From Flavobacteriaceae bacterium (GTDB taxonomy: Bacteria; Bacteroidota; Bacteroidia; Flavobacteriales; Flavobacteriaceae), in assembly GCA_002706045.1 (NCBI GenBank), contig PAJL01000076.1, forward strand, positions 12,037 through 50,988: 38,952 nucleotides of DNA, written 5' to 3'. Positions 11,015 to 30,607 of the stretch are shown piece by piece (the stretch's first letter is position 1; each line of letters begins with the position of its first letter). The notes under the pieces were generated by a model. The model saw only the letters and a program-made list of their open reading frames with translations. It was not told the DNA's origin and did not search any database. The position numbers and the translations under genes are program-made.

Positions 11015-11015
11015 T

Positions 11016-11681
11016 ATGTTTTCAAAAGTTTTAATCGCAGATGATTTAGGAAGTATTAACCGAGGGGTTGAGACGATATTAGCAACTTTAGGTATCACTA
11101 ATGTTGATCAAGTTCAATATTGCGATGACGCTTATTTAAAAGTAAAATCAGCAATTCAGAAAAATGCACCCTATGATTTGGTAATAACTGATTTGTCATT
11201 TAAAATTGATCATCGTGATCAAAAACTTGCATCTGGTGAAACTTTAGCAAGACAGCTAAAATCTGAATATCCAGATCTTAAGGTTATTGTTTATTCGGTA
11301 GAAGATCGTTTGCAAAGAGTAAGAAATTTAATTCAGAATATTGAGGTGGATGCATATGTTTGTAAGGGTAGGCATGGGTTAATGGAATTAGCTGCTGCAA
11401 TTCACTTAGTTCACGATAATAAAATTTATGTATCACCACATGTTGAAGAAGCTCTGAAACCAAGTTCAAATTTAGAAATCAACGATTATGATATTGTTTT
11501 GTTAGAGCAGTTGTCCAAAGGTTTATCTCAAGATGAAATTAGTGAATATCTGAAAACTAACGATATTAAACCAGCTAGTCTAAGTTCTGTAGAAAAACAT
11601 ATTAATAAATTAAAAATTCAGTTTAGAGCAAATAATGCTATTCAGCTCATTGCAATTTCTAAGGATCTTGGTTTAATTTAG
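11016..11681 (+). CDS. LuxR/NarL-type response regulator
   Basis: 221 residues. The N-terminal receiver domain has the early acidic pair (IADD) and phospho-acceptor Asp59 (LVITDLSF). The VIVYSVEDR strand and a following lysine (VCKGRHG) complete it. The C-terminal LuxR-type helix-turn-helix spans about 150-215 (EQLSKGLSQDEISEYL, SVEKHINKLKIQF). It forms a two-component pair with the kinase just upstream and is followed at once by a palindrome, a terminator and a second identical-type palindrome. The simplest reading is a regulator that binds those sites and controls itself and the motor operon at 11896; that link is inference. Confidence 0.9.
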   Translation: MFSKVLIADDLGSINRGVETILATLGITNVDQVQYCDDAYLKVKSAIQKNAPYDLVITDLSFKIDHRDQKLASGETLARQLKSEYPDLKVIVYSVEDRLQRVRNLIQNIEVDAYVCKGRHGLMELAAAIHLVHDNKIYVSPHVEEALKPSSNLEINDYDIVLLEQLSKGLSQDEISEYLKTNDIKPASLSSVEKHINKLKIQFRANNAIQLIAISKDLGLI

Positions 11682-11895: not shown

Positions 11896-13350
11896 ATGAA
11901 TATCCGATTACATCTATTAGTTCTTTTTTTTGTGTTGAGTTGTTCAACACCAAATAATAAATCCAAGTATTTTAATGACTTTGAGTTGTTTATAGAAGAA
12001 CTTGAGGAGAGGAAAAGGACTAATAATATTGACTCGCTAGAAGAGAATGAAACTTTTAAATTTTATTTAGAGCAAAAAAATAAATTCCGTTTATCAAACC
12101 AAGACGTTAAAAATATAGATGAACTAACGGAACGTTTTAAAGTAATTTTTAAAGAATCAGGAGGTGTTGATTTAAAAGTAAATTTCTATTTCGAAAATTC
12201 TGCAAGTATGAATGGTTACCTCGAAGGAACAGAGTTCCTACAAGTAATGAATAGAGTTGTAGGTAACATTCAAAATTATGATAATAAATCCTTCTTTGTA
12301 AACTCTAAAGAGCATCAACAATCAAATATCTTACAGAAGATAAATAAAAAACAAATTAAGGTAGGAGATATAAGCAATTCTGATCATCAATTTATTTTTT
12401 CAAACGCTATAAATTCTGCATCTGAAAATAATAGTTTAAGTATTGTTGTTACAGATGGGATTTATTCAGTTACTGATGGAAATATTGATATTGTTCCAAT
12501 AAAAATAGAACAAGCTTTTCAAAAATCATTGAAAAGTAAAAATACAGAAACTGTAGTTTTAAAATTAACTTCAAAATTTAAGGGAACATACTATTCTGAA
12601 ACTTGTCAACCAGGTAAAAAAGCGATTAAAATTAATCAAAGTCGTCCTTATTACATGCTATTATTTGGTGATAGCTCAGTTATAGATAAAGCTTTACAAG
12701 ACATAGTTAATGTTACAGAACTTCCTGGGTATAATGAGCAAGCAAGGTTTTTGTCTTCGTTACAATCCAAACCTAGTTATACAATTTTATCTCAAGGTGA
12801 AGAAAAAATAGGGCATTTTAAACCTGCAAAAAGAGGAAGTAGTTTTTTTACAGAAATAATTGATGTAGAAAAATCTAAGGCTTCTAGATATAGTAAGGAT
12901 GAAAATAAAGAAAACGTATTTCAATTTGGAGTGGCTGTAGACTTTTCAAAAATAGACCTGCCAAATTCTTATTTAGAAGATTTAGGGAATTATAGTATAT
13001 CTGAAGAAATGGGTTATGAAATATTAGATATACAAAATATTGATAATGTTGAAAAAACCAGCAGGACTTATAAAGAGCTAAATAAAATTCAAGAAGCAAA
13101 CAAAGTAGAATTTACACATATTATAACTGTTAGTGCGCAAACTAATTTGTTTGGAGAATTAGAAATTAGTTTAAATAAAAATTTGCCAGAATGGATAAAG
13201 GAGTCTGGAACAACAAACGATTGTGAAATAATAGGTGATGAAAAAACAACTTTTGCTTTTGATCAACTGATTCAAGGAATTTCAAAAGCTTATCAAAAAA
13301 AATCCAATAAATCCGATTACTTAAATATTAACCTAAAAATTAAAATATAA
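11896..13350 (+). CDS. vWA-like domain lipoprotein, first gene of the motor operon
   Basis: 484 residues. Lipoprotein signal with Cys16 (FFVLSC). From about residue 92 a von Willebrand A-like domain is suggested by a hydrophobic strand leading into ENSASM (100-105), at the place of the MIDAS motif D-x-S-x-S, and by IVVTDG (183-188), which matches the later TDG motif. The first Asp is Glu here and the fold is otherwise divergent, so metal binding is uncertain. The C-terminal 200 residues have no recognised family. It should face the periplasm or outside. It starts the nine-gene operon, 2 bases before the next gene. Role as sensor, adhesion or scaffold protein is inference. Confidence 0.65.
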   Translation: MNIRLHLLVLFFVLSCSTPNNKSKYFNDFELFIEELEERKRTNNIDSLEENETFKFYLEQKNKFRLSNQDVKNIDELTERFKVIFKESGGVDLKVNFYFENSASMNGYLEGTEFLQVMNRVVGNIQNYDNKSFFVNSKEHQQSNILQKINKKQIKVGDISNSDHQFIFSNAINSASENNSLSIVVTDGIYSVTDGNIDIVPIKIEQAFQKSLKSKNTETVVLKLTSKFKGTYYSETCQPGKKAIKINQSRPYYMLLFGDSSVIDKALQDIVNVTELPGYNEQARFLSSLQSKPSYTILSQGEEKIGHFKPAKRGSSFFTEIIDVEKSKASRYSKDENKENVFQFGVAVDFSKIDLPNSYLEDLGNYSISEEMGYEILDIQNIDNVEKTSRTYKELNKIQEANKVEFTHIITVSAQTNLFGELEISLNKNLPEWIKESGTTNDCEIIGDEKTTFAFDQLIQGISKAYQKKSNKSDYLNINLKIKI

Positions 13351-13352
13351 AG

Positions 13353-13784
13353 ATGAATAATGTTGTAGCTAGTTTATACGACCCTTGGTTTAATTACGAA
13401 TTGTACTCTGATTTGTTAAATGCTGTATATAATGCTTTTGATTTTCAAAAACTTGGAATTGCATATCTGGTGGTGTCAATTGTTTGTTTGTTAGTGTTTT
13501 ATAAAGTATTAGATCCTATTAAAAAACCTCGCCTTAAATGGTTTTTAACAACGGTTTGTTCAGGTATATTGATGCTTATAGTTTGTTGTGTGTTATTGTA
13601 TAATAATAATGAAGTCCTAATGTCTATTGCAAGTTATAGCCCAAGCCAACCAAATGCTATTAATCCTGAATATTTTATTATTCAAATGGCTGCTATTACT
13701 TTTTTATACGGTGTTATTACTGCAATGCTTTTATCTGTGCTAATGAAATATTTAAGTGCAGCAAATACTAAAAATCCTTTTTAA
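13353..13784 (+). CDS. Three-TM membrane protein of unknown function
   Basis: 143 residues with three predicted TM helices at about 34-51, 63-83 and 107-131, separated by a short basic loop (PIKKPRLKW) and a 25-residue loop. No family recognised. It sits between the vWA-like lipoprotein (2-base gap) and the tubulin-like gene (2-base gap), so it probably anchors or couples the periplasmic and cytoplasmic parts of the system. Confidence 0.75.
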   Translation: MNNVVASLYDPWFNYELYSDLLNAVYNAFDFQKLGIAYLVVSIVCLLVFYKVLDPIKKPRLKWFLTTVCSGILMLIVCCVLLYNNNEVLMSIASYSPSQPNAINPEYFIIQMAAITFLYGVITAMLLSVLMKYLSAANTKNPF

Positions 13785-13786
13785 AT

Positions 13787-15262
13787 ATGGCAAAATTATA
13801 TGTGTTCGGAATAGGAGGTACTGGATCAAGAGTTTTAAAATCTCTTACAATGCTACTTGCATCAGGTGTAAAACTTCAAAATGATTTTGATACGTTAGTA
13901 CCTATTATTATTGATCCAGATGCTGCAAATGGAGACTTAAATAGAACAGCAGATATACTAACAAAATATCAAAGCATTTACAATTCGGTAGGAGAAGATA
14001 ATCAGTTATTCGCAACTAAAATCCTAACCTTAAAACAATTATTAAATGATAAACTTCCAAGTGTTTCAGATCATTTTAAGTTCGGTATGACTAATACTGG
14101 TCAGAAATTTGGAGAATTTATAGATTATAATGGATTGGATAAAGAAAATCAAGCTCTTATTGATTTGTTATTTAGCAAAAATAATTTAGAGTCTGACATG
14201 ACTGTTGGGTTTAAAGGAAATCCCAATATAGGTAGCATTGTATTAAATAAATTTACCGATTCACCAGAATACAAAGAGTTTACTAGATCCTTTAATCCAG
14301 GTGATGCAATTTTTATTATTAGTTCAATATTTGGGGGTACGGGAGCATCTGGTTTTCCTTTATTATTGAAAAATTTAAGACTCAACAAACCCGAAATTGA
14401 AAATAGTAATATAATTAGTAGTTCAAAAATTGGTGCTATATCTTATTTACCATACTTTAAAGTTGCTAATTCAAATGATGATAATAAAGCTATAGATTCA
14501 ACTACTTTCTTTAGTAAATCTAAAGCAGCTCTGAGTTATTATCAGCATTCTATTTTTGATAATAAGGAAACCATTAATGCTTTTTATTATTTAGGAGATT
14601 ACTCAAATAATAACATGCCTTATTCAGAAGGGAAAAGTGATCAGAGAAACAATGCTCATTTTCTTGAATTAGCAGGAGCTTTATCTATAATAGACTTTAC
14701 TAAAGATTTTAACAGTCTAACTGAAAGTGATTCAACAATAATAAAAGAATTTGGTATAGAACCACATGAAGGTAGTAAACTAAAGTTAGATCATTTGGGT
14801 CAGTGGTCAAAGAATCAAATAAGTGTTCCTCTTTCCAAAATGGTGCTTTTGTCAAAGTTTCTTAATAAATCTTTAGATGTTTTATTTCAAAATTTAGGAG
14901 AATTCAACAAAAAGGATAACGGGATAAGTCGAGAGTTTTATAATCAAGAATTTTACAGAAGTTATTTTTTGAAGTTCATTCAGTACTTTGATGAATGGAT
15001 GGATGAGATGGAAGATAATGATGTTTCTTTCGCACCATATCATGATAATCAAGAACACGATACGCTTCTAGATTTTGTAAAAGGGAAAGATGTAGAAAGA
15101 GGTGGTTTTTTAAAGAAGAATAAAGCGAGTGCTAACCATATAATAAAAGAAGCACATACAATTGCAAAAAGTAAAAAACATGATGACGAATCAGAACCTT
15201 CAAGATTCCTGAAAATTTTGGATGAAGTTCTTACTACACAAATAACGAAAATTCTAAATTAA
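13787..15262 (+). CDS. Tubulin/FtsZ-superfamily-like protein
   Basis: 491 residues, cytoplasmic. The N terminus has a strand followed by a glycine-rich nucleotide loop GIGGTGSR (8-15), as at the start of tubulin/FtsZ Rossmann domains. Residues 182-189, FGGTGASG after a hydrophobic strand (AIFIISSI), match the tubulin/FtsZ signature GGGTG(S/T)G. This is the pattern of the bacterial 'tubulin-like' family (Pfam Tubulin_2). The family is predicted to bind GTP and may polymerise; neither is shown for this protein. The C-terminal 200 residues are divergent and helical. Two bases after the membrane protein and 5 before the actin-like gene. Confidence 0.8.
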   Translation: MAKLYVFGIGGTGSRVLKSLTMLLASGVKLQNDFDTLVPIIIDPDAANGDLNRTADILTKYQSIYNSVGEDNQLFATKILTLKQLLNDKLPSVSDHFKFGMTNTGQKFGEFIDYNGLDKENQALIDLLFSKNNLESDMTVGFKGNPNIGSIVLNKFTDSPEYKEFTRSFNPGDAIFIISSIFGGTGASGFPLLLKNLRLNKPEIENSNIISSSKIGAISYLPYFKVANSNDDNKAIDSTTFFSKSKAALSYYQHSIFDNKETINAFYYLGDYSNNNMPYSEGKSDQRNNAHFLELAGALSIIDFTKDFNSLTESDSTIIKEFGIEPHEGSKLKLDHLGQWSKNQISVPLSKMVLLSKFLNKSLDVLFQNLGEFNKKDNGISREFYNQEFYRSYFLKFIQYFDEWMDEMEDNDVSFAPYHDNQEHDTLLDFVKGKDVERGGFLKKNKASANHIIKEAHTIAKSKKHDDESEPSRFLKILDEVLTTQITKILN

Positions 15263-15267
15263 AAGTA

Positions 15268-18200
15268 ATGGCAAAAAAAGTTTTTCGAATTCACTATGAA
15301 GGCGCTCATAATACAGACTGGTTTACTTCAGATAAAATAAATGCCACATTAATAGATAATATAGTTACTGATGGTGGAGATGGTAAAAAATTACCAACTT
15401 CTATACCTAGTCCATTTGCAAGAATAGATTTAGTTAGAACTGCGTTCAGTGCTATTGGAGCCAATGGTAATTTAGATGGTATAACAAGAAATGGTAAGGC
15501 TGTAGCTAGCGATAATCACAAACTTGTTTCAGATGCTTTAGATATAGGTCAGTTGTTTTTTAACTATGATAAACATCAAGATGATTTAAGCTTAATTGTA
15601 TGGAATAAGGAAAAAGGGGTAAATACACTTTTAAATTCAAATCAACATCAAAAGCATTTAGGAGAAACATTAAAGTTATTCTTTCAGCAAGATAGTAATC
15701 AATATAATTTTAATGAATTTAATCATATATACATTTTACTTTATAAGCATAAAATTATTGGGGGAACTTCACCTAGAACACTCTTTTTTGCTGCACCAGA
15801 TGCAATAGGAACCGATATAAGATTTGGTCAAGATACAATGCTAGATGATATGCTTTTACCTCTCTACAGGAGAGACCCAAATTATATAAAATATTTAGTA
15901 GCACTTTCTAAAAGACCTAATTTTAATATATATTTTCCTGAGTTTAATAGCTATATAAGAAAAACGGTAGATAAATTATATAGTTATAATCCATCATTAC
16001 ATGGAGAATTAATGAATCAAGATGCAACATCTTATTTAGATTCTCTTAAGCCAATACTATTTAATAATAACTTAGGTCAACCTGTTGAAGTAATTCAAAG
16101 CTTACTATTAAAACAGTTTAAAAAAGATCCTTCATTAATAGAAAAAGCAAGTGATTTTACTATAAAATCCAGTAAAAACATTGATGAGCTTACACCTTTG
16201 GTTTTACCTGTAGAAACCTTGAATTTACCATACATATATACAGAAGATAAATGGGATAGTAATACCAAAGTGCCATATCAAGATAGCAAGCCTATAAATG
16301 AAAGGTTGTTACCAGATCAGGGAGATAAGTATCCTTATCTAACAATGAACGATTTTTTAGAAAGTACAATTATAAAACTGCCTTACAGTGTAGATGCATC
16401 AAAATTCTTAACCTTAGGAAACGGACAGTTTTTAATTCCATTAAAACCTCTTTTCTTTAAGTATTTTTCTGTTAATGATCTTATTAATAAAAGTTTATTA
16501 AAAATAAAAGAGCTTGCGGGTAGTAGTGTTCAAGTAGAATTAAACATACCAATAAAGCAAGGTTTTATTTCTTATACAAAGATTTATAATACACGTTCTA
16601 ATGTGACAGATGCAGTTCAATTAGATAAAGGTGTAATTTTAGAAAAGTCACTTGCAATGTGTATTTATCCATTTAATAAAAGTAATGAGGTGAAACTTAA
16701 TTATACCATTGGTTTAGCTGATATTTTCCCTAATAATTCAACTAAGTTATCAGTTAATTTATATAACGATACGTCTCAAAATCCTTTAAAACCTAAAAAA
16801 AACAAGGAGAGATCTGATCAACCATATATTACAAGTCAAACTATTTTAGATCAAAATTTTGATGCTATAGGTTTAAATGTAGGAGAAAGTCAGAACTATA
16901 TTATACCTCTTTGGAACAATTATACAATTACAGGAGGAGATGCATACAAATTCGCAATAGATTTCGGAACCACTAACACACATATAGAATATGCTATTGA
17001 GGGGCAAGGAAGTGCAAAAGCATTTGATATTTTAGATACTGAAGAGCAGATTGCTTTTTTATTACCAGCTTCAGCTTCTCGAAGAACAGATGCAGTTAGA
17101 GTAATAGATGATGGTGAATCACATTTAATGCAAGAAATAATACCTAAGCGAATAGGTAAAGATGAGATGGTAAAAATGCCATTCAGATCTGCACTACTTC
17201 AAAATACTAATGTTAATTATGATTTAGCAACATTTGTGTTTGCAAATGCTAATATAGGTTTTGAATATGAGAAAAAACCAATCAGACCATACCTTAAAAC
17301 ATTTACAAATTTAAAGTGGTCACATGAGTCTAATAATGATAAGCAAGTAAAACATTACATTGAAGAAATTTTAATGCTTTGTAAAAACAAAGTTCTTAAA
17401 AACAATGGTGATTTGGCTAAAACAAAAATTATATGGTTTTATCCTGTTAGTATGACAACAAACCATTTAAATAGGTTTAGAAGAATTTGGTCAGAGTCAT
17501 TTAATGCCATATTTAATATTAACGAAGAAAATTTAAGTAGTTTTCCAGAAAGTATTGCACCATTTTATCATTATAAGAACGAAGAAGGTATTAGAACAGC
17601 AGCTAGACCATCAATATCTATAGACATTGGAGGCGGAACAACTGATGTTATGGTCTATTTTGATGAGAAACCACAATTTATTACATCATTCAAGTTTGCT
17701 GGAAATGCCATTTTTGGTAATGGTTTTAATGGAAATATAAAGTCTAATGGTTTTGTTCAAAAATATAAAGATGTATTTGAAAATGTTTTAAACCAAAACA
17801 AGCTTGTAGAGGAAGCAAATATTTTAAAAAGAATTTATGGAGATTATATGTCTTCTACAGATCTCATGAACTATCTATTTTCTCTAAAAGAGAATAAGAA
17901 TGTAGTTGAAAAACATCTTGATTTAGATCTTAATAAACACCTTGCTAATGATGATGATTTTAAAATAATCTTTTTACTGTTTTATTCTTCAATAATTTAT
18001 CATATCGCTGAAATGATGAAGTTAAAAGGTGTTGATCAACCTAGAAACGTTGTTTTTAGTGGAACAGGATCAAAAACTTTAAAAATATTAGATGTAACAT
18101 CTCAGCTTTCAAGCTTAACAAAAGTTTTTGAGGCAATTTTTAATAAAGTATATGGCAATGATTTAATTAATTTAGATGTGAAGTCTAAGGATAATCCTAA

Positions 18201-18636
18201 AGAAGTTACCTGTAAAGGTGGTTTTAGTATAGACAGTGATTTAGATGGTATTAAACACACAGATTTAATTGAGATAAATATAGGTAATGGAAATACTCCG
18301 AAAATTCAATCTAAGTCTCGTTCCCAAGAAGAAGTTATTACATATAAAGATCTAGATAAAAAATATTTAGAAGGTGTTATTGAAAATGTTAATAATTTCT
18401 ATGATTTGTTTAATGATCTTATCCATGAATTAGATTTTAGAGGAGAATTTGGATTATCTAATAAATCCATAGAATTATTTAATCAAATAAAATCAAACGA
18501 TCAGTTAGATTACTTGATGCAAGGTGTAAAAGGATTGTCTGATGATTCTATACCAGAAGAACCTGTAGCTCAAAGTTTATTCTTTTTTCCTTTAACAGGT
18601 TTACTATATGATTTGGCTTCTTCAATTAATCAATAA
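15268..18636 (+). CDS. Large protein with C-terminal actin/Hsp70 (ASKHA) ATPase fold
   Basis: 1122 residues, no signal or TM segment. The first approximately 550 residues have no recognised family. An actin/Hsp70-like ATPase then follows, with phosphate-1 motif IDFGTTNT (about 564-571), phosphate-2 motif DIGGGTTD (786-793) and adenosine motif VVFSGTGSK (about 928-936), in the right order and spacing for the superfamily, with a large insertion between phosphate-1 and phosphate-2. It resembles SrfB-type or other large 'virulence factor' ASKHA proteins in layout, though I cannot assign it. ATP binding is expected; chaperone-like or filament-forming behaviour is open. Central gene of the operon, directly beside a tubulin-like gene. 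Confidence 0.82.
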   Translation: MAKKVFRIHYEGAHNTDWFTSDKINATLIDNIVTDGGDGKKLPTSIPSPFARIDLVRTAFSAIGANGNLDGITRNGKAVASDNHKLVSDALDIGQLFFNYDKHQDDLSLIVWNKEKGVNTLLNSNQHQKHLGETLKLFFQQDSNQYNFNEFNHIYILLYKHKIIGGTSPRTLFFAAPDAIGTDIRFGQDTMLDDMLLPLYRRDPNYIKYLVALSKRPNFNIYFPEFNSYIRKTVDKLYSYNPSLHGELMNQDATSYLDSLKPILFNNNLGQPVEVIQSLLLKQFKKDPSLIEKASDFTIKSSKNIDELTPLVLPVETLNLPYIYTEDKWDSNTKVPYQDSKPINERLLPDQGDKYPYLTMNDFLESTIIKLPYSVDASKFLTLGNGQFLIPLKPLFFKYFSVNDLINKSLLKIKELAGSSVQVELNIPIKQGFISYTKIYNTRSNVTDAVQLDKGVILEKSLAMCIYPFNKSNEVKLNYTIGLADIFPNNSTKLSVNLYNDTSQNPLKPKKNKERSDQPYITSQTILDQNFDAIGLNVGESQNYIIPLWNNYTITGGDAYKFAIDFGTTNTHIEYAIEGQGSAKAFDILDTEEQIAFLLPASASRRTDAVRVIDDGESHLMQEIIPKRIGKDEMVKMPFRSALLQNTNVNYDLATFVFANANIGFEYEKKPIRPYLKTFTNLKWSHESNNDKQVKHYIEEILMLCKNKVLKNNGDLAKTKIIWFYPVSMTTNHLNRFRRIWSESFNAIFNINEENLSSFPESIAPFYHYKNEEGIRTAARPSISIDIGGGTTDVMVYFDEKPQFITSFKFAGNAIFGNGFNGNIKSNGFVQKYKDVFENVLNQNKLVEEANILKRIYGDYMSSTDLMNYLFSLKENKNVVEKHLDLDLNKHLANDDDFKIIFLLFYSSIIYHIAEMMKLKGVDQPRNVVFSGTGSKTLKILDVTSQLSSLTKVFEAIFNKVYGNDLINLDVKSKDNPKEVTCKGGFSIDSDLDGIKHTDLIEINIGNGNTPKIQSKSRSQEEVITYKDLDKKYLEGVIENVNNFYDLFNDLIHELDFRGEFGLSNKSIELFNQIKSNDQLDYLMQGVKGLSDDSIPEEPVAQSLFFFPLTGLLYDLASSINQ

Positions 18637-18646
18637 TGATAGTGTT

Positions 18647-19381
18647 ATGAATCTAATATTTTTAATACAGCCAGATATTGTGAGTCAAGTTAATGAGGAT
18701 GTCGTAGGTACAACTGATGTTTTTTTTGACCTTAAAACGGTAATACTGATAGTAGCAATTTTAGTTCTTGTAATTATTAATCTGACCTTACTTCGAATGC
18801 TCAAAAAGTCTAATTCTAAAGTAAGAAAATTAAATAATAAGCCAGATTATTCTCATTTTAAAAATATAGAACAAAATACGTATAAAACTAAAATAGAAAA
18901 CCTTAAAAAAGCTAATGAGGAATTAAAAAAACAATTTTTTAATAAGAGTAAAGAATTAAGAGTTAACAACCAATCAGAACAAGATAATGTTTTAAATGAT
19001 GTTAATCAAGAGCCCTTGAAGGATGAAGATCCTGTGGTATATGATAGTTTTAAGATAGAAAAACCAGAAGTTCTGTTTTTACCATCCCCTTTTGAAGATA
19101 GAAAATTTTCAACCGAAGATGTGAGTAAAGAAAGAACACCGTTTTCTTTATATAAGATAAAACTAAACTCATCTAAAGTCTTTGGTGATTTAACCTTTCT
19201 AGAGGATGCAGATTTGTCAAGAGCTTTAAACTCTCCAGACCATTATCTTGAAAAAGCATGCGTTTATGTAAATGCTTTTAATATAGAAGCCAAAGGTATA
19301 GAAGTCGTTGAGGCAGGTGAAGTAAAGCTAGAGAATAATGATTGGTCCATTATACAAAAAGTAAAAATCAAATTTATTTAG
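18647..19381 (+). CDS. Single-TM protein with coiled coil and unknown C-terminal domain
   Basis: 244 residues from ATG 18647. A longer start at 18608 would overlap the previous gene by 29 bases, so the start 10 bases after its stop is preferred. TM helix at about 29-50, then a basic segment, a charged coiled-coil stretch (about 75-115) and an approximately 100-residue C-terminal domain (from LFLPSPFEDR to the end) rich in beta-type strands. No family recognised. It may link the actin-like protein to the membrane motor whose gene follows 2 bases downstream; that is inference from position. Confidence 0.7.
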   Translation: MNLIFLIQPDIVSQVNEDVVGTTDVFFDLKTVILIVAILVLVIINLTLLRMLKKSNSKVRKLNNKPDYSHFKNIEQNTYKTKIENLKKANEELKKQFFNKSKELRVNNQSEQDNVLNDVNQEPLKDEDPVVYDSFKIEKPEVLFLPSPFEDRKFSTEDVSKERTPFSLYKIKLNSSKVFGDLTFLEDADLSRALNSPDHYLEKACVYVNAFNIEAKGIEVVEAGEVKLENNDWSIIQKVKIKFI

Positions 19382-19383
19382 AG

Positions 19384-21009
19384 ATGGAGGGAATTGAGAG
19401 AGTTGAGATTGCCGTAATTTTAGTTTTAATAGGGTTTCAATTATATTTTGCATTTAAGCTATGGCAAAAAATAGTTTTGTATAAAAATGTTTTTAAGAAT
19501 CCGCCACTTCTCGGTCTTAAAGATGTGTCATTAAGTCTTTATAATGAGGGTGATGTAGATGAAATACTTTTAGATGAAAATTTTAATGAAGATGTAGAAT
19601 TTGACAACCCTACAATTAGAATAGCTTACCTAGTAAATAACTCGAAAAATGTTGTTATAAGTGAGATCTGCAATTCTATTAATACATATCTTATTAAAAA
19701 TAAAAGTGCAGCTATAGATTTTCATATTTTGAAGGATATAACGGACAGAAATGTAGAGATTAAAGAAGGTGAAATAGATAATAATATTCCAGCTCCGTTA
19801 TATATAGGTTTAGCAGCAACTATGCTGGGTATTATATTTGGATTATTTGCAATTAATTTTAATACCTCAACAAGCGAAAGTGCGACATTAGCTTTGGAAG
19901 CTATAAAACCACTAATTGATGGTGTGAAAATTGCTATGACAGCTTCTGTTACAGGACTAATTATTACGACTGTATTTTCGATTTTGATATTTAAAAGTGC
20001 AAAATCAAAAGTAGAAAATGGTAAAAATGAATTTTTATCTTTTTTACAATCGGAGCTTTTGCCAAAAATGAATAAATCCAAACTTCCAGAAGTTCAAACC
20101 CTATCAAATAAACTAGATAAGTTTGCAAGAAGCACAAGTGGTGTAGTAGCTCAATTAGATAGTGTGGTCAAAAATTCATCCCAGGCCATAAATAGAGAAC
20201 AAGATCTTATTGAACAAATCAAAGAGCTAGACGTTAAAAAAGTTGCGTCAGTAAACTTAGATGTGTTTAATCAACTACAAGGGATGATGGGATCATTTCA
20301 AGAATTTGCGAAATATTATGAGCATTTAGATAAGTCTTTGTTGAATACAAGCAACCTGTTAAGTAACTTACAAGTGTTCGTTGCAAATACACATAATATT
20401 AATGTAATATTAGAGGATATAAAAAGTACTGTTGCAAAAAGTAATCAATCAACCGAGTTTTTTAATACCCATATAAAGTCTTTTGTTAATTATGAAGATG
20501 CCGTTAAAGAAGCTGTGGCAAATACAGATTCTAAAATGTCTAGAGCAATTGAAGAATTAACAAGTTCTGCTCATAAACAATTCGAAGCGTATAATAGTGT
20601 TATTTCAGAATATGACTCAAAACTTTCTACTGCTTTTAACAAGTCTATAGAATCGTTTACAGAAGTAATGACAAAACAAGTTGCTAAAACAGAGGAGGCT
20701 TTTAACACTGCCAGACCTAAATTTGAATTGTTAAGTAAATTAAATAAGCTAGATGTAATTGAAGAACGATTACAAAATTTAGAAAATGAGTTAACACAGG
20801 TCATTTCTAACGGAAATAATTCAATTGTTAAAGCTATTGAGGCTATTAGTATTAAATCAATTAAAGTAGAATCAGAAACTAAAATTCCTGAGCTTAACTT
20901 TCCTAAGCCTAGCGTTTTTCAAAATATTGTATCCACACTTAGTGTATTAACCTATACTGTTATTATATCAGGTGCTTGTTACTATGTTTATATAAATTAC
21001 TTTAAATGA
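19384..21009 (+). CDS. MotA/ExbB/ZorA-like stator subunit with long tail
   Basis: 541 residues from ATG 19384; an upstream ATG at 19342 would overlap the previous gene. TM1 about 8-26. The core pair TM2 (about 138-161, APLYIGLAATMLGIIFGLF) and TM3 (about 180-203, VKIAMTASVTGLIITTVFS) shows the Gly/Ala/Thr-rich pattern of the MotA/TolQ/ExbB channel family. A cytoplasmic tail of about 300 residues is mostly coiled coil, as in Zorya ZorA. Unlike a simple ZorA it ends with another hydrophobic helix (about 515-536). Established for the family: pentameric ion channel subunit driving rotation of a B-subunit dimer. The stop overlaps the next gene's ATG (ATGA), the usual A-B coupling. Confidence 0.82.
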   Translation: MEGIERVEIAVILVLIGFQLYFAFKLWQKIVLYKNVFKNPPLLGLKDVSLSLYNEGDVDEILLDENFNEDVEFDNPTIRIAYLVNNSKNVVISEICNSINTYLIKNKSAAIDFHILKDITDRNVEIKEGEIDNNIPAPLYIGLAATMLGIIFGLFAINFNTSTSESATLALEAIKPLIDGVKIAMTASVTGLIITTVFSILIFKSAKSKVENGKNEFLSFLQSELLPKMNKSKLPEVQTLSNKLDKFARSTSGVVAQLDSVVKNSSQAINREQDLIEQIKELDVKKVASVNLDVFNQLQGMMGSFQEFAKYYEHLDKSLLNTSNLLSNLQVFVANTHNINVILEDIKSTVAKSNQSTEFFNTHIKSFVNYEDAVKEAVANTDSKMSRAIEELTSSAHKQFEAYNSVISEYDSKLSTAFNKSIESFTEVMTKQVAKTEEAFNTARPKFELLSKLNKLDVIEERLQNLENELTQVISNGNNSIVKAIEAISIKSIKVESETKIPELNFPKPSVFQNIVSTLSVLTYTVIISGACYYVYINYFK

Positions 21010-21644
21010 AAAAAACAGGTTTTTTTTGGGTAAGCTTCGCTGACTTAATGACAAGTTTATTTTTTCTAATGCTTGTTTTGTATGTAATAACTTTTGTGAT
21101 TTTAAAGGTTGAGCAAGGTAAAATTGAAGCTCAGAACGAACAGCTTAAAAAAATACTTCAAATAGAAGATCAATTTGCGCCGCTACAAAATGATAAGGAT
21201 TTTTTTTATCTAGATGATTGTGAGAAGTATGTAGCCAAAGAGTTAATTGGTATTGAAATATTTGAGCCAGATAAAACCGAAATATTAGATGTGCATAGAG
21301 AAACTGTTATTCAAGTAGGGCATAAAATAAATAAGTTTTTAGAAAGTCTCAGAGCGCAAAACGCCAAATTTAGCTATTTACTAGTAATAGAAGGAAATAT
21401 GGCTAATTCATGGGATAGAAGGTTTAGTTTAGACTCTAATTATGGATATTCAAAAAGTTATGAGCGTGCCTTATCAGTTTATAATTTATGGAACAAAGAA
21501 GGTATAAATTTTAGAGGAGGAAATGTTGAAGTATTAATTTGTGGTAGCGGATTTAACGGGCTTTGTAGAGATTCAATTGAGAAAAACAACAAAAGGTTCT
21601 CTATTCAAATTATACCAAAAATAGAAAAGATAGATTACAAATGA
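21006..21644 (+). CDS. MotB/ZorB-like stator subunit with OmpA-like domain
   Basis: 212 residues. One N-terminal TM helix preceded by FFWVSFADLMTSLFF, the MotB/ZorB hallmark in which Asp13 is the proton-binding residue. A short linker coiled coil follows, then a periplasmic OmpA/MotB-type domain: FEPDKTEIL, VGHKINKFL, LLVIEG, SYERALSVYNLW and a NNKRFSIQIIP end, corresponding to the peptidoglycan-binding fold's RA and NRR elements. Overlaps the A subunit by 4 bases and the next gene by 4 bases. With its partner it should form an ion-powered rotary unit anchored to cell wall. Confidence 0.85.
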   Translation: MKKTGFFWVSFADLMTSLFFLMLVLYVITFVILKVEQGKIEAQNEQLKKILQIEDQFAPLQNDKDFFYLDDCEKYVAKELIGIEIFEPDKTEILDVHRETVIQVGHKINKFLESLRAQNAKFSYLLVIEGNMANSWDRRFSLDSNYGYSKSYERALSVYNLWNKEGINFRGGNVEVLICGSGFNGLCRDSIEKNNKRFSIQIIPKIEKIDYK

Positions 21645-22378
21645 GAAACCAGCGTATTATAACATTACTTTTTATGTTCGTTTTGTTTTTTGAATCTTGT
21701 GTAGGCTGTTCAAATTCTGGGAGATCTCAAGTTATAGCTAAAGCTAGAGAAGAAGCAGAAAAAATAGAGACTAAACCGATACCAAATACAATAAAAAAGT
21801 CTGTAAAACCTAAGGTTATAAAGATAGAAGATATTGTTACACCATCAGAAAAACAATCAATTATTAAAGATTTGGTTAGAGATAAAATTCCTAAAGCAAA
21901 AGGTAATTTAATACAGGTGGAAGGTCTTGTTTTAAAAGAGGTGATGGAATTGAATATAAAGTTAAATACTTCTTCATCCCAAGTACAACAGATTCTTGCT
22001 ATGCAAAATCATGTTAGAGTCAATTGGCATTACATTTTTGATCCACAAACAGGGAAGGACACTTGGCGATCTGCAGAAGCAACATTAGCCTTAAAGTATA
22101 AAGGACAGTATTCTGGTGATTGTGATGATTTCGCGATTTTATTAGCTTCAATGGCAAGACAAATAGGATTAAAATCACGTATGATAGGAGGCTTTGATAA
22201 AGGAGATGGACATGCTTTTGCAGAGTTTTTATTACCACAAAGTTATACTATGGATAAGAGTTTAACCTATTACGATTTTAGAAAAGATGATGAAGGTATA
22301 TGGGTGAGTTTAGATTGGTTTAAAGGAAATAAACACAATAGGTTTACAAAGGATATTAGAGTATATGAAAATATTTAA
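21641..22378 (+). CDS. Transglutaminase-like lipoprotein
   Basis: 245 residues. Lipoprotein signal with Cys20 or Cys23 (FESCVGC) as acylation site, then a basic/Pro-rich linker. The transglutaminase-like fold is shown by SGDCDDFAILLASMAR (catalytic Cys161), GHAFAEF (His191) and YYDFRKDD (candidate Asp212), in the order of the Cys-His-Asp triad. Members are mostly proteases/peptidases or amide-forming enzymes; peptidoglycan crosslink or protein processing would suit a protein anchored in the periplasm. ATGA-type overlap with the MotB-like gene and a 14-base overlap with the nuclease-like gene show tight coupling to the motor. Confidence 0.82.
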   Translation: MRNQRIITLLFMFVLFFESCVGCSNSGRSQVIAKAREEAEKIETKPIPNTIKKSVKPKVIKIEDIVTPSEKQSIIKDLVRDKIPKAKGNLIQVEGLVLKEVMELNIKLNTSSSQVQQILAMQNHVRVNWHYIFDPQTGKDTWRSAEATLALKYKGQYSGDCDDFAILLASMARQIGLKSRMIGGFDKGDGHAFAEFLLPQSYTMDKSLTYYDFRKDDEGIWVSLDWFKGNKHNRFTKDIRVYENI

Positions 22379-23309
22379 AAATCTGTTTGCGTTTTGGTTG
22401 GTACTTTCAATGACAGGATTTGTTATATCCTGTAATCCCAATTCAAAGGGTAACACTACACGCTCTGCCACTGTGAAATTGGTAGATAATTCGGCCGCCA
22501 ATGATTCTAGCTCTGAACTCGTAGCTAATAGCGATTCAATCTATAATTCGAGAAACCAATTTAAAATAGTGAGTTGGAATATTAGAGATTTAGGACGGTC
22601 AAAGATACTAAAAGATATAGAACAAATAGCGCATGTAATTAAAGAAGCAGACTTGGTATTGATACAGGAGGTTGTAGCTAAAGACCCAGCAGGTGCACAG
22701 GCAATAGCTAAAATAGCCGACAATTTAAACAGGTTAGGAAGTAAGTGGGATTATGCTACAAGTAACCCAACTGAAAGTCCTTCAGCCAATATGAGTGAGC
22801 GTTATGCTTTTCTTTGGAAAACCTCCAAGGTGAGGTTGTTAAACGAGCCCAATTTAGCATCAAATTATAAAGATGTTATTTATAGAGAGCCATTTCTTGC
22901 TAATTTTAAATTTAAAAATAAATCTAATCCTATTAGCGTTGTAAATTTCCATTCGCGTAAACATAACGATAACCCAGAACATGAAATTAAATATTTTGTA
23001 GATATTCAATCTAAACTAAAATATAAGACAGTTATAATTGCGGGTGATTTCAATTTAGATGAATCTCACAAAGTTTGGCAACCTCTTTATGACTTAGGCT
23101 TTAAAAATGCATTATTTAAGACTAGAACCACACTCAAAAAAAAATGCAGTTTTGGGGACTATAAAAATCATGCTATAGATAATATTTACTATAATAATGG
23201 TATTGATAAGATAGAAGCAAAAGTTATAGATTTAGTTAAAACCTGTGACAATTTAGAAGAGATTAGGCGGTTATCTGATCATTTACCTGTTCAATTGATA
23301 TTTTATTAA
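22365..23309 (+). CDS. Endonuclease/exonuclease/phosphatase (EEP) family lipoprotein
   Basis: 314 residues. Lipoprotein signal with lipobox VISC (about residue 23). The DNase I-like EEP domain is complete: Asn72 in SWNIRDLG, Glu102 in LIQEV, the RYAFLWK strand, His in NFHSRKH, Asp228/Asn230 in AGDFNLD, DNIYYN, and the terminal Asp305-His306 in SDHLPV. The superfamily includes nucleases, sphingomyelinases and inositol phosphatases, so DNA is only one possible substrate; length and motifs fit DNase-type members. The lipid anchor places it outside the cytoplasm. Last gene of the operon, overlapping the transglutaminase-like gene by 14 bases. Confidence 0.85.
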   Translation: MKIFKNLFAFWLVLSMTGFVISCNPNSKGNTTRSATVKLVDNSAANDSSSELVANSDSIYNSRNQFKIVSWNIRDLGRSKILKDIEQIAHVIKEADLVLIQEVVAKDPAGAQAIAKIADNLNRLGSKWDYATSNPTESPSANMSERYAFLWKTSKVRLLNEPNLASNYKDVIYREPFLANFKFKNKSNPISVVNFHSRKHNDNPEHEIKYFVDIQSKLKYKTVIIAGDFNLDESHKVWQPLYDLGFKNALFKTRTTLKKKCSFGDYKNHAIDNIYYNNGIDKIEAKVIDLVKTCDNLEEIRRLSDHLPVQLIFY

Positions 23310-23750: not shown

Positions 23751-26354
23751 ATGACCAACAAAAAACTAACCCTTTCATGGCTAGAAGGTTTCCTTATGGA
23801 TGCCTGCGATATATTAAGAGGTAACATGGATGCCTCAGAGTTTAAAGAATACATTTTCGGGATGTTATTCTTAAAACGACTAAGCGATAAATACGAGCAA
23901 GATCGAGATAAACGCTATAAAGAACTTTTAGAGCGTGGCACTGCTGCTGATAAAATAGAAGCGGCTTTAAACAGACCAAATGCCTACCAATATTTTGTGC
24001 CACCACGTGCACGTTGGAACTACAAAACCATCAACGATGCTGGTGTAGAAATTAATACTGGTATTCTTCACCTTAAAAAAGACGTAGGCGACCATTTAAA
24101 CAAAGCATTAGAAGCATTAGAAGAAGCGAATCCAGATAAGTTAAGTGGAGTACTCACCAATGTAAACTTTAACCGTACCATTGGTAAAAACAAAAATGCC
24201 TTGAGCGATGAAAAACTTATTGAGTTTATTACGCATTTTGATAAGGTGGTGCTTACAGACGACCGTTTTGAATTTCCAGACTTGTTGGGAGCAGCTTACG
24301 AGTATTTAATTAAATACTTTGCCGATAGCGCTGGTAAAAAAGGTGGCGAATTTTATACACCTAACGAAGTAGTAAAATTATTGGTCTCTATTTTAGAACC
24401 TGGTGAAGATGCCGAAATTTACGATCCTACTTGTGGTTCTGGTGGTATGCTTATTGAAAATAAAAACTACGTAGAAGCTCGTTATGGCGATGCGTCTCGA
24501 TTGAGTTTTTACGGACAAGAGTTAAGCGGTACTACCTGGTCTTTGTGTAAAATGAATATGTTGTTTCACGATATTTTTGATGCCACCATTTTACAAGGCG
24601 ATACCATTGCCAATCCGCAACATATAGAAAATGGAGAACTCAAACGTTTTGACATCGTTATTGCCAATCCACCATTTTCCGCCAATTACAGCGATATTAA
24701 AAACCATCGCGACCGTTTTCATTATTGGATGCCTAAAAAGAAAAAAGCTGACTTTATGTTTGTGCAGCACATGGTATCGGTATTAAAAGATAACGGACGT
24801 ATGGCAGTAGTGATGCCTCACGGTGTGCTGTTCCGCGGAAGCGAAGAAAAAAGTATGAGACAATGGTTGGTAGAGCGTGGTTATCTAGAAGCGGTGATTG
24901 GTTTACCATCGGGCTTGTTTTATGGTACAGGTATTCCTGCTTCGGTATTGGTGATCAATAAAAAAGATGCTGGTACACGTAACGAGGTCTTGTTTATCAA
25001 TGCTGATAGGGAATACAAAGAAGGAAAAAACCAAAACAAACTGCGACCAGAAGATATTGCCAAAATCACCTACATCTACAAAACCAAAGAAAATTTAGAA
25101 GGTTACGCCAAAAAGGTGTTTCAAACCGATTTAGAAAAAGAAGACTATAACTTCAACATTCGTAGGTACGTAGATAACAGTCCGCCAGCACAACCACAAG
25201 ATGTGCACGCGCACTTGCATGGTGGTATTCCTACAGCCGAAGTTGATGAACTACAAAACTATTGGGACAATTACCTGAACCTGCGTACTGCCATTTTTCA
25301 CAAAGCACCAAAAGCAGGATACGATGTATTTACGGACCAAATTACCGCTAAAGAAGACCTAAAAAACGTGGTGCTTAACCACGAGGATGTTTTACAAAAA
25401 CGCGAAGCCTATACCAACAGTATCAACAATTGGTGGAACCAAAACGTAGCAAAACTTGAAGCCTTACCAGACACCCAAAACGTTTATGAGGTACGACAAG
25501 ATTTTGCAGTAAGCATTGCTACGACCTTTAACCAATTGGGTATTTTAGACTTACACAAAAGTCGTGGTGCCTTTGCTGCTTATTGGGATGCTTTAGAAAC
25601 TGATATAAAAAGTATTGCCGCCAGTGGTTGGAATGCCGAATTAATACCTGCCGATGCCATTTTACAATCGCAGTTTCCTGAGGTGTTGGAAGAATTAGCC
25701 AAAAACGAAGCCCGTAGAGACGAGTTGGATGCATTATTTAATGAAGTAAACGAGTTGGACGAAGACGAGTACGAAGAAGACAACTACGAGGTATTCCCAA
25801 AAGACACCTTAAAAGAATTAAAAGCCGACTTAAAAGAAGCCAACGCCACCATTCGCCAATGTAAAAAGGACATCAAAGCCTTAAAGATTAGAATAAAAGC
25901 CAACGCGTCTGTCATTCAGAGTCCTGACGTTTACAGTCAGGACGAAGAATCTCTAAAAACCCAACTAGCAAAAAAAGAGCAAGAACAAACCCAAGCCGAA
26001 ACCAAAAAAAACAACATAGATCAAAAACTAGCACGCCATAACGAGTTGACCAAAGAGCTAAAGGACTGTAGAGCGACCATAAAAGAAATAAAAGAACAAA
26101 AAGAAGACCTAGTAGCCAAAGCACGGGAGAAGATTACAGCAGACGAAGCCAAGGTACTCATACTACAACGCTTTAAAGACACCCTACACACCACGGTTAT
26201 GGATTATGTGCACCGTTACGAACGTGCCATGTTAACCGAGCTAGAAAACCGTTTTAGTAAATACCAACACACCTTGGTAAACATTTTAAACGAGCGCGAG
26301 CAAGCCGCTAACCAATTGCAAACGTTTTTAACCGAATTGGGCTATGAAGGATAG
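23751..26354 (+). CDS. hsdM: Type I restriction-modification DNA methyltransferase subunit
   Basis: 867 residues. An N-terminal HsdM helical domain ([14 protein letters not shown]) precedes the N6-adenine methyltransferase core. KKGGEFYTP leads into it, the AdoMet loop is DPTCGSGG (225-232) and catalytic motif IV is NPPF (306-309). A long C-terminal extension follows; residues about 640-820 are acidic then coiled coil, making it much longer than the approximately 500-residue classical HsdM. It methylates adenine in the site chosen by HsdS and is a subunit of the restriction complex. Residues about 721-735 are encoded by a palindromic repeat (25911-25953). Overlaps hsdS by 11 bases. Confidence 0.95.
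25911..25953. repeat. Palindromic repeat embedded in frame in hsdM
   Basis: Begins GTCATTCAGAG, continues with the perfect stem GTCCTGAC/GTCAGGAC (25921-25928, 25936-25943; 7-base loop) and ends GACGAAGAATCTC. The GTCATTC...GAAGAATCTC frame with a variable palindromic centre is the form of dispersed intergenic repeats known in many Bacteroidota genomes. Here it is translated as part of a loop in the coiled-coil tail without breaking the frame. Confidence 0.6.
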
Positions 26355-27603
26355 TTGGGAAAAGAAAAAAGTTTCTGATTTTGGTGATATTATTACAGGT
26401 TCAACGCCTTCAACAAAAAATATCAATTTTTGGGATGGTGAATATCCTTTTTATTCACCTGCCGATTTTAATGGCAAAGTTTACTGTATACAAACAGAAA
26501 GAACTATTACTGAATTAGGTTTAAGAACTGGCAGGATTTTACCAAAAAATTCAGTAATGTTTACATGTATTGGTTCAATAGGAAAAATGGCTATAAGTAA
26601 TTCGATTGGTATATCAAATCAACAAATTAATGCTATTATAGTTAATGATTGTTTGGACTTTAAGTACATATATTATTTACTTTTTCATTATAAGGATAGG
26701 TTTAAAAACTTCGCGCCAATGACTACAATTCAGATAATAAACAAAACTGAATTTGGTCAATTTAAATTTAACCTACCACCACTACCACAACAACGCAAAA
26801 TAGCCGAGATATTAAGCACGGTAGATGCGGTGTTAGAAAAAACCGAAGCCGCCATAGCCAAATACCAGCAGCTTAAACAAGGGTTAATGCACGATGTATT
26901 TACACGTGGTATAGATGTACACACAGAGCAACTACGCCCCAAACAAACCGAAGCACCAGAACTGTATAAACAAAGCGCTTTAGGTTGGATTCCTAAGGAA
27001 TGGGAAGTGGAAACAGTAGACTCAGTAGCTTTTTTAAGGCACGGTTATCAATTTAGAGATTATGACTTCGTAAAAGAAGGAATTGATGTTGTAAAGATAG
27101 GACAGATTGGTAAAAAAGGTAATGTCAACTTAGAGAACTCTTCAAAAATAGCATCATCTAGATTAGATGAATTCAATCCAATACAACTGTTTGAAGGTGA
27201 TATTTTAATGGCTTTGACTGGTGCAACTTTAGGTAAGACTGCTATAATAAGAGGTATTGATAAACCAATGTTACAAAACTATCGCGTTGGTTATTTTACA
27301 CCTAGAGATGAAAATAAACTTAATAAGTTATTTCTCTATTATCTTTTAATCGGTGACTCTGTTCAAAACGAAATTTTAGGTTTTGTTAATACAGGAGCAC
27401 AAGGGAATATTGGAAAGGCAGATTTTGAAAAAATTAAGGTTATAGTACCTAGTTCTATTCAAGAGCAAAAGTTAAGTTCATTAAAACTACAATCCATCGA
27501 CCAAAAAATCCACACCGAGCAACAGGCTTTGGCAAAATACAAGCAGCTAAAAGCAGGTTTAATGCAAGATTTGTTAACGGGTAGGGTAGAGGTGCGTGTG
27601 TAA
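26344..27603 (+). CDS. hsdS: Type I restriction-modification specificity subunit
   Basis: 419 residues with the standard two-half layout. Target recognition domain 1 spans 1 to about 140 ([23 protein letters not shown]). The first conserved helix follows ([13 protein letters not shown] then [13 protein letters not shown]). Domain 2 spans about 215-375 ([29 protein letters not shown]) and the second conserved helix is [20 protein letters not shown]. The two recognition domains read the two half-sites and the helices set the spacing. Start overlaps hsdM by 11 bases. Base composition inside the recognition domains is more AT-rich than in the conserved helices, as expected of exchanged modules. 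Confidence 0.95.
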
Positions 27604-27623
27604 GTAATTAAAAATACAAGAAT

Positions 27624-28505
27624 ATGCCAGTAAATGAGTTAGAAATTCATCCTTATTTAGAGGATATAAATTACCAAGATTTTAAAGTTAACCATTTTGA
27701 GAATCTCATTATTGGTACGTTTCCTGTATATAGTATAACAGATACACTAACACCAGAAGAGGAAATACAAGAACATGTATTGAATGAAAACAATGCTGAT
27801 ATGCGTTTTTTTTACGGAAGTAAAAAAAATAATTTTTGGTCTTGGTTTGCAAATGCCTTTTATGCAGATAACCCTTTAGAACAAGCTAACCCAGAATTGC
27901 GTAAACAAGCTGCCGTAGACTTATTGGTGGCTAACAAGTTCTTAATTACCGATGTGCTTTATAAAACTAACCGCAAAAATACGTCGGCATTAGATAGTGA
28001 TTTGTGGGTGAAAACACGAAACAATTTTGTTGTACAAAACCGTAGCTTAAATCATAATTTAAGCACATTACTCAATATTAATAAGGCTATTAAAAACCTT
28101 TATTTTACAGCTACGGGTTTAGATGGTAAAACCCCTTTTGTCTGGTTCAAAAAAATATTTGGTGACGATTTAGAGTTCCAAAATATCAATGTAATACATA
28201 ACAATACGGTTTCGGCAACACTAACCATTAAAAAGAGAAAATACAATACCTTTTTCCTTATTACACCAGGAGGTGGTTGGGCAAGACGTATTCCATTTAC
28301 TGGCATAAATAACGATGGTATGTTTTCTAATTTTTTAATGGATATAGATATGAATTTTTACCATGAAATTGAGCATGTATATAAAGAGGATAGAACAAAA
28401 GCACAAGGGGACACACTGAAACAGTATCGTAAAAATTATATTAAACTGTACTATACCCAATTACTCAATGCTAAAAACATGTTGTTTGATGGACATATTG
28501 TATAA
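27624..28505 (+). CDS. Uracil-DNA-glycosylase-fold-like protein in the R-M operon
   Basis: 293 residues, no signal or TM. Residues 27-34 (NLIIGTFP) and 61-72 (RFFYGSKKNNFW) match the two early motifs of UDG-superfamily proteins of the Mug/DNA-deoxyinosine glycosylase type (GTFP and FYGxxxNxFW). A later TPGGGW at about 213-218 could be part of the fold. The usual C-terminal HPSP-type motif is not obvious. Lies 20 bases after hsdS in the same orientation, so it is probably co-transcribed. A role in processing modified or damaged DNA next to a restriction system is plausible but inferred. Confidence 0.5.
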   Translation: MPVNELEIHPYLEDINYQDFKVNHFENLIIGTFPVYSITDTLTPEEEIQEHVLNENNADMRFFYGSKKNNFWSWFANAFYADNPLEQANPELRKQAAVDLLVANKFLITDVLYKTNRKNTSALDSDLWVKTRNNFVVQNRSLNHNLSTLLNINKAIKNLYFTATGLDGKTPFVWFKKIFGDDLEFQNINVIHNNTVSATLTIKKRKYNTFFLITPGGGWARRIPFTGINNDGMFSNFLMDIDMNFYHEIEHVYKEDRTKAQGDTLKQYRKNYIKLYYTQLLNAKNMLFDGHIV

Positions 28506-28513
28506 AAATACAA

Positions 28514-28747
28514 ATGATGAATAATAAGAATAGAAAAGATTTAAGAAAGGTCATAGAAATTATTAACGACTTAAAAGATATTGTAACAACCATCCAAGAA
28601 GAAGAGCAGGAAAAGTTTGATAATCTACCAGAAGGATTACAAGATTCAGAAACTGGGATGAATATTGAAGCAGCCGCAACATCATTAGAAGAGGTTCTAA
28701 CTAATCTTGATGAGGCGATTGATAATATTGAAACAGCAATCATTTAA
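28514..28747 (+). CDS. Small acidic helical protein
   Basis: 77 residues (76 if the second ATG at 28517 is used). Heptad-like, very acidic: IEIINDLKDIVTTIQEEEQE, then a conserved-looking DNLPEGLQDSE turn, then a second helix of AATSLEEVLTNLDEAI type. This helix-turn-helix hairpin matches small proteins of unknown function seen in many bacteria and phages. Position between the UDG-like and DUF262 genes, with short gaps (8 and 13 bases), points to co-expression with the restriction genes. Confidence 0.7.
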   Translation: MMNNKNRKDLRKVIEIINDLKDIVTTIQEEEQEKFDNLPEGLQDSETGMNIEAAATSLEEVLTNLDEAIDNIETAII

Positions 28748-28760
28748 AAAAAATATTAAA

Positions 28761-30605: not shown

Positions 30606-30607
30606 CC

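Follow-up and report, generated by a model that had tools for sequence, protein, structure and literature searches.

Rotary 5:2 motors drive flagella, Ton, type 9 secretion/gliding, and Zorya. The 38,952-nucleotide stretch of Flavobacteriaceae DNA analyzed here (the window) encodes two motor-like subunits, A and B, which the original prediction described as a ZorAB-like motor without Zorya effectors. We asked what kind of motor these proteins represent and what, in place of ZorC, ZorD, and ZorE, such a motor would act upon.

The A/B pair is part of a nine-gene operon

Genes A and B, which share a four-base overlap, are genes 6 and 7 of a nine-gene operon spanning positions 11896-23309 (Table 1), a placement that rules out an orphan motor. 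Nine genes in identical order were found in Xanthomarina gelatinilytica, with 39-79% protein identity. As predicted, ZorC, ZorD, and ZorE were not among the PADLOC matches listed for 27 of the 30 window ORF products (at least 120 aa; best 25 matches for three RM proteins), and a search of the window's own genome, run without a positive control on an assembly that is 74% complete, gave no ZorD match. The description "motor without effectors" therefore stands insofar as no Zorya effectors were matched, but it is misleading in that A/B resides in an operon with tubulin- and actin-like proteins.

Table 1. Features of the nine-gene operon and of its A and B subunits (window positions)
Feature	Position	Strand	Basis or remark
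vWA-like exported lipoprotein, 484 aa, ExSxSM MIDAS-like motif	11896..13350	+	lipobox Cys16; E100/S102/M105 invariant in 11/11
Small TM protein, 143 aa, relatives usually with three TM helices	13353..13784	+	position kept in most core loci
FtsZ/tubulin-like protein, 491 aa, GGTGSR and FGGTGASG loops	13787..15262	+	family Pfam matches
Actin/Hsp70-like ATPase, 1122 aa, DFGTTNT/DIGGGTTD/FSGTGSK	15268..18636	+	motif residues among invariant columns, 11 members
One-TM coil protein; true start may be ATG 18647	18608..19381	+	
A subunit, MotA/ExbB/ZorA-like, 541 aa	19384..21009	+	start ATG 19384
A TM2-TM3 core	19798..19992	+	T146 and S188 invariant across 12 clade A proteins
A tail, 290 aa, heptad-periodic	20029..20898	+	residues 216-505; 0/500 shuffles as high as observed value
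A C-terminal hydrophobic helix, residues 515-536	20926..20991	+	KD 1.61
B subunit, ZorB/MotB-like, 212 aa, TM Asp13, OmpA-like domain	21006..21644	+	profile and structure matches
B residues 129-133, EGNMA replacing EGHTD of ZorB/MotB	21390..21404	+	H, T, D missing in 25/25 clade members
Transglutaminase-like lipoprotein, Cys/His/Asp present	21641..22378	+	PF01841 E 3e-11; triad read from sequence
Endonuclease/exonuclease/phosphatase (EEP)-like lipoprotein	22365..23309	+	PF03372 E 7e-7, above cut-off

By sequence, lipoproteins account for three of the nine operon products. None of the 11 members of the first lipoprotein family matched a Pfam vWA model; their E-x-S-x-S-M motif, in which the second S is nearly invariant and which reads DGSGSM in a cyanobacterial (Gloeothece) relative, is what we take to be a vWA MIDAS and is the basis of the name "vWA-like." The small TM gene that follows was uncalled at locus L020 and is short or encodes two TM helices at L037 and L099. 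The tubulin-like family matched PF00091 in 11 of 12 members and PF13809, the domain of Makarova and Koonin's FtsZ-like family according to the available text of PMC9871819, in 9 of 12 (E <=0.01, best 3e-9), and the window copy itself falls under the Pfam cut-off (PF13809, 22 bits vs. a cut-off of 27). Matches of the actin-like protein to FtsA (PF14450, E 3e-5, under cut-off) and to MreB (7bvy, E 0.007) are weak or below threshold. Its three motifs, DFGTTNT, DIGGGTTD, and FSGTGSK, are presumably of the actin/Hsp70 type. Taken individually, the putative actin and tubulin identities of the window copies are thus weak. PADLOC returned no match for the operon's lipoprotein, TM, tubulin-like, or actin-like proteins. 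The transglutaminase-like and EEP-like proteins that close the operon are 71% and 47% identical, respectively, to their Xanthomarina copies.

Directly to the left of the operon lie genes for a TPR histidine kinase and a response regulator (9377-11681), homologues of which (37% and 59%) are also found to the left of the Xanthomarina operon.

The A subunit has a ZorA-like core and a long coiled tail

Hydrophobic helices in A begin near residues 9, 139, 185, and 515, and it is from this helix count that a cytoplasmic placement of the tail is expected. T146 of TM2 falls within a conserved GTxxGI stretch. When the TM2-TM3 regions of 12 A proteins from the window clade (defined below) were compared as a profile with eight canonical ZorA proteins, hhalign gave a probability of 98.3 (E 2e-14), whereas the match to four MotA/ExbB/TolQ proteins was weaker (83.9, E 8e-6). 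Of the two profiles compared, that of ZorA is nearer in sequence to the A core than that of MotA/ExbB/TolQ. The tail exceeded all 500 shuffles in heptad periodicity, so the anatomy first proposed for A, a MotA-type TM2/TM3 core followed by a long coiled tail, is borne out. The predicted fold of A had a pLDDT of 37.5, too low for use.

It had further been suggested that the A tail ends, unlike that of ZorA, in an extra hydrophobic helix that could return to the membrane. This helix retained its hydrophobic character in the three closest copies (KD 1.61-2.04). Using a threshold of KD >=1.5 over 19 residues within the last 45, we found such a helix in 13 of 24 clade A proteins (the window, L006, L007, L100, and all nine stand-alone pairs described below) vs. 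0 of 14 canonical ZorA proteins. The helix is therefore not peculiar to the window; nor is it a defining feature of the clade, since 11 of the 24 are without it.

The B subunit has lost the peptidoglycan-binding motif of ZorB

B carries its transmembrane aspartate, D13, within the sequence FADLM and matched PADLOC ZorB1 with an E value of 9e-11. A four-sequence B profile aligned residues 7-210 with type I ZorB (PDB 8vvn, E 1.5e-7), and a model of B built from four sequences (pLDDT 70) was most similar to ZorB structures (8vvn_B, Z 10.5, rmsd 6.7, 193 residues aligned; 8vvi_A, Z 9.9), in agreement with the TM aspartate and OmpA-like end originally ascribed to this protein. The domains of MotS, MotB, OmpA, and Pal come next (Z 7.5-9.3) and, because they score almost equally, the fold of B is best described as OmpA-like, without ZorB being singled out by fold alone.

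In ZorB I, residues H186, L199, R203, R254, and R259 are required for peptidoglycan binding and defense, and T187, R203, and R254 are counterparts of Pal residues, according to the available text of PMC11890865. We assigned R254/R259 to the NRR stretch by alignment and published spacing rather than from that paper's figure. None of the 25 clade B proteins has the pocket H, T, or D188, and one has the initial R of NRR, while R203 is present in all 25. Among the 16 reference proteins (14 ZorB, MotB, and Pal), all have the initial R of NRR, 15 have H, and T and D are each found in 14. Canonical ZorB proteins of the same phylum retain H in 11 of 12 and T in 11 of 12, so the loss is not a phylum-wide change. 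Stand-alone and DarT-linked members of the clade (see below) have lost the motif as well, which rules out a pocket tailored to the core's lipoprotein and argues for a ligand other than that lipoprotein alone.

The A/B pair most likely represents a distinct motor lineage

In a tree of concatenated A-core and B sequences (41 taxa), 24 clade members were split from canonical ZorAB, MotAB (represented by a single pair), and ExbBD/TolQR with UFBoot support of 98. The same tree grouped 13 canonical ZorAB pairs at 98 and three ExbBD/TolQR pairs at 99, and this support rules out nesting of the window pair in either group, the result on which the original prediction had hinged. Support in trees built earlier, on nine clade members, was 96 (A) and 97 (B). 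Reference pairs were considered canonical by ZorD similarity (L061, L062, L063, and L115), by record annotation of ZorA, EH-signature, and helicase (L069 and L070), by an HNH third gene (L055), by the A-B-third-gene layout only (L056-L060 and L114), or by likeness to L062 (L064). The ZorB of L069 (internal stop), L112 and L037 (fragmentary), the TolQ-like protein of G000, and GldM were removed before counts; the 41-taxon tree additionally excludes GldL, the ZorA of L069, and Pal.

Approximately unbiased (AU) tests were applied to the first A+B set of 24 taxa, nine of them clade members. Grouping of the nine with six Zorya II-like sequences was rejected (p 0.003), as was grouping with five ZorCD/ZorI-labelled sequences (p 0.003), although the latter value partly penalizes L061 because that set is itself not monophyletic. 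Grouping with L062/L064 was rejected by the AU test (p 0.019) but not by the KH and SH tests. The AU test did not reject grouping with MotAB/ExbBD (p 0.77), ExbBD/TolQR (p 0.41), and Zymomonas ZorAB (p 0.33). A GldL tail match was weak (E 0.034), GldL formed an extreme branch in an earlier tree, and the trees were built without GldM. Sequence comparison places A/B most likely in a ZorAB-like motor lineage of its own, apart from canonical ZorAB.

A/B and the tubulin/actin core occur together and apart

Thirteen loci have A/B downstream of a tubulin/actin core: the window, L006, L007, L019-L022, L037, L099, L100, L109, L111, and L113. Among these, L007 begins within the actin gene, L037 is broken with no actin gene visible, the tubulin gene of L111 is cut by the end of the stretch, and the coil gene of L113 was assigned by position only. 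The order tubulin-actin-coil-A-B is retained at L019-L022, where the tubulin- and actin-like proteins are only 27-41% identical to those of the window, and at L099, L100, L109, L111, and L113.

The phylum sample of 395 genomes yielded the actin-like protein in nine. A/B adjoins the core in five of them and is lacking in three (L018, L023, and L024); at L025 the contig ends early. Cores without A/B were also present in Prevotella (L005) and on a viral-labelled contig (L017), and on two cyanobacterial plasmids the profiles matched lipoprotein, tubulin-like, and actin-like genes and no A/B. Downstream of the coil gene, L018 and L023 encode a one-TM protein with WG repeats, and L024 encodes, in the place of A/B, a one-TM protein with a sub-threshold SH3 match. 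These replacements suggest a set of several interchangeable membrane modules, of which A/B would be one. Since the A/B-bearing cores do not make one group on a tubulin+actin tree, A/B has been acquired, lost, or swapped on more than one occasion.

The cyanobacterial plasmid loci L075, L076, and L077 carry the lipoprotein/TM/tubulin/actin core among mostly unnamed genes, L077 being recognized by layout only.

A nine-protein B profile matched 20 of 395 class genomes at E <=1e-8, of which 10 were core-linked, 1 DarT-linked, 6 stand-alone, 2 canonical Zorya, and 1 a fragment. The six stand-alone genomes, all of family f70, carry nine pairs (L101-L108 and L110), up to two per genome, and in each the A protein has a C-terminal TM helix; L102 is on a 3 kb contig, its surroundings unseen. 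The A/B lineage thus also occurs without a core or toxin nearby. An order-level search with a single A protein recovered the window alone among 296 genomes. Scans of viral contigs gave one match for query A1, one for A4, and none for A2, and phage records gave no match for two queries.

The DarT-linked class genome (G825) has two B copies, and further DarT-linked pairs were found in a Parabacteroides distasonis record (L004) and on a viral-labelled contig (L036). DarT, known from DarT-NADAR toxin-antitoxin modules (PF14487, PF22397), thus adjoins three A/B relatives, none of them in this window, and the available literature yielded no motor paired with DarT. The clade A/B genes and DarT occupy positions 4497-8681 of L036, 15953-20075 of L004, and 6520-11227 of L098; two of these loci include a DUF6939/NADAR-like gene and one has two tandem B genes.

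Restriction genes and an integrase flank the operon

The operon is followed in the window by a type I RM locus (23751-33952) with an embedded GmrSD-type restriction gene (28707-30605). A phage integrase at 37035-38444 marks a possible island edge. McrBC genes lie near the Prevotella core. When ten flanking proteins were scanned at eight loci, restriction-related matches were obtained at L005 and L036 only. A CARF-named PADLOC match at L019 was discarded, the flanking protein being a GH2 glycosidase.

Comparison with known systems

With Zorya ZorAB (types I/II; PDB 8vvn, 8vvi, and 8qyd), the window pair shares the MotA-type core, the long coiled tail, and the B TM Asp and OmpA-like domain. It differs in its separate clade, in the loss of GHTD, in the C-terminal TM helix of many A proteins, and in an operon that provides tubulin/actin-like NTPases where no ZorC/D/E was matched. 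Unlike ExbBD/TolQR, B is OmpA-like and the pair falls outside their group (99); unlike MotAB, the clade B proteins have lost the GHTD of MotB, and the clade lies outside the one MotAB pair in the tree.

Makarova and Koonin (2010; PMC2875224) predicted that vWA/FtsZl1/OmpA-like operons remodel membranes. In the available text, these FtsZl1/Tubulin_2 operons combine an FtsZ-like protein with partners that carry vWA and OmpA domains and are often membrane-associated, a set to which the tubulin-like, vWA-like, and B proteins of the window would correspond. The window operon differs in its full A/B motor and large actin/Hsp70-like protein, and its tubulin-like protein is half as long as Huta_2051. 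The other kind of GTPase described for FtsZl1 operons was not recognized among the operon proteins scanned, and the main text of PMC2875224 mentions neither MotA nor MotB. Kaur et al. (2020; PMC7159879), as far as their text was available, predicted tubulin, HSP70, and vWA parts in GTPase-centric (GAP1-N2) conflict systems, a set of components to which the tubulin-like, actin/Hsp70-like, and vWA-like proteins of the window would correspond. Those systems are described mainly from other phyla, and no GAP1 GTPase was recognized here; MotA, ExbB, TolQ, Zorya, and a proton channel go unmentioned in the main text of PMC7159879. Among the literature matches listed, mostly at title/abstract level and including few subscription papers or preprints, there was no ZorAB-like motor with a tubulin/actin operon.

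What A/B may do

We favor, with a probability of roughly one half, the reading that A/B supplies the ion-driven membrane part of a tubulin/actin NTPase system of FtsZl1 type that serves in defense and is triggered likeliest by phage or mobile elements. A and B would form an inner-membrane motor, for which a 5:2 stoichiometry is expected, and the vWA-like lipoprotein and the OmpA-like domain of B would read the envelope from the periplasm. By analogy with Zorya (PMC11890865, available text), periplasmic sensing would open an ion path, and ions flowing past Asp13 of B would turn A around B; the sensor side is expected to differ from that of Zorya, given the loss of the peptidoglycan motif. The coiled A tail may then signal to the two NTPases, tubulin-like and actin/Hsp70-like, that would stand in for ZorC/D/E. 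These are the likeliest receivers, since no ZorC/D/E was matched nearby and the NTPases are the fixed cytoplasmic neighbors. The likeliest trigger would be attack by phage or another mobile element, and the exported transglutaminase-like and EEP-like enzymes may be accessory effectors of the flavobacterial version.

The nine-gene order in Xanthomarina, the 13 loci combining A/B and core, and the ZorAB-like core with its heptad tail all speak for this reading and suggest a motor coupled to a cytoskeleton-like machine. That the machine serves defense is probable and is hinted at by the RM locus with GmrSD, the integrase, McrBC, DarT at three loci, and the patchy occurrence of the core (9/395); the prediction by Kaur et al. 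(PMC7159879, available text) of conflict systems built from tubulin, HSP70, and vWA parts lends further support. Weighing against our reading are the individually weak actin and tubulin identities of the window copies, the lack of PADLOC matches for the lipoprotein, TM, tubulin-like, and actin-like proteins, the scatter of A/B-bearing cores on the tubulin+actin tree, the scarcity of restriction-related flanks (two loci of eight), the GH2 gene at L019, the chromosomal appearance of the stand-alone pairs, and the clade-wide alteration of the B pocket, for which the core's own lipoprotein would not be the reason.

Some of these same observations suit a non-defense envelope machine, in which an ion gradient would drive membrane remodelling or cell-surface work with tubulin/actin-like polymers, as in ExbBD, TolQR, and GldLM. 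Most of the nine stand-alone pairs of the one family sit in ordinary-looking chromosomal settings, membrane remodelling is the role predicted for vWA/FtsZl1/OmpA-like operons (PMC2875224, available text), and lipoproteins make up a third of the operon's products. Such a machine is nonetheless rather unlikely, as patchiness and neighbors such as RM, McrBC, integrase, and DarT genes better suit a mobile conflict system. Less likely still is a divergent Zorya type, with a peptidoglycan-sensing ZorAB whose effectors have been replaced by other DNA-damaging proteins. The ZorB1 match covers most of B, the A core is nearer to the ZorA profile of the two compared, and DarT or an EEP-type nuclease could replace ZorE; however, the clade lies outside canonical ZorAB (UFBoot 98), the pocket H, T, and D are missing in all 25 members, and the two enzymes, EEP and transglutaminase, resemble exported lipoproteins and hence would not be cytoplasmic. 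That A/B merely adjoins an unrelated core operon by chance is very improbable: each does occur without the other, but the tubulin-actin-coil-A-B order has been kept at L019-L022 despite 27-41% identity, as well as at later loci.

We also tentatively consider a reading in which a separate lineage of ion-driven stators, with a rebuilt periplasmic pocket and an often membrane-returning tail, powers or gates, from across the inner membrane, an intracellular machine of tubulin and actin-like polymers.

The assembly is real, conserved, and unusual; its motor belongs to an established type, its set of partners was unexpected, and its function is inferred. If the lineage is wired to tubulin-/actin-like NTPases, it would constitute a new output for rotary 5:2 motors. 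The loss of GHTD in 25 of 25 members makes the activation of such motors a testable question, and A/B would give the long-orphan FtsZl1 operons a partner in the membrane.
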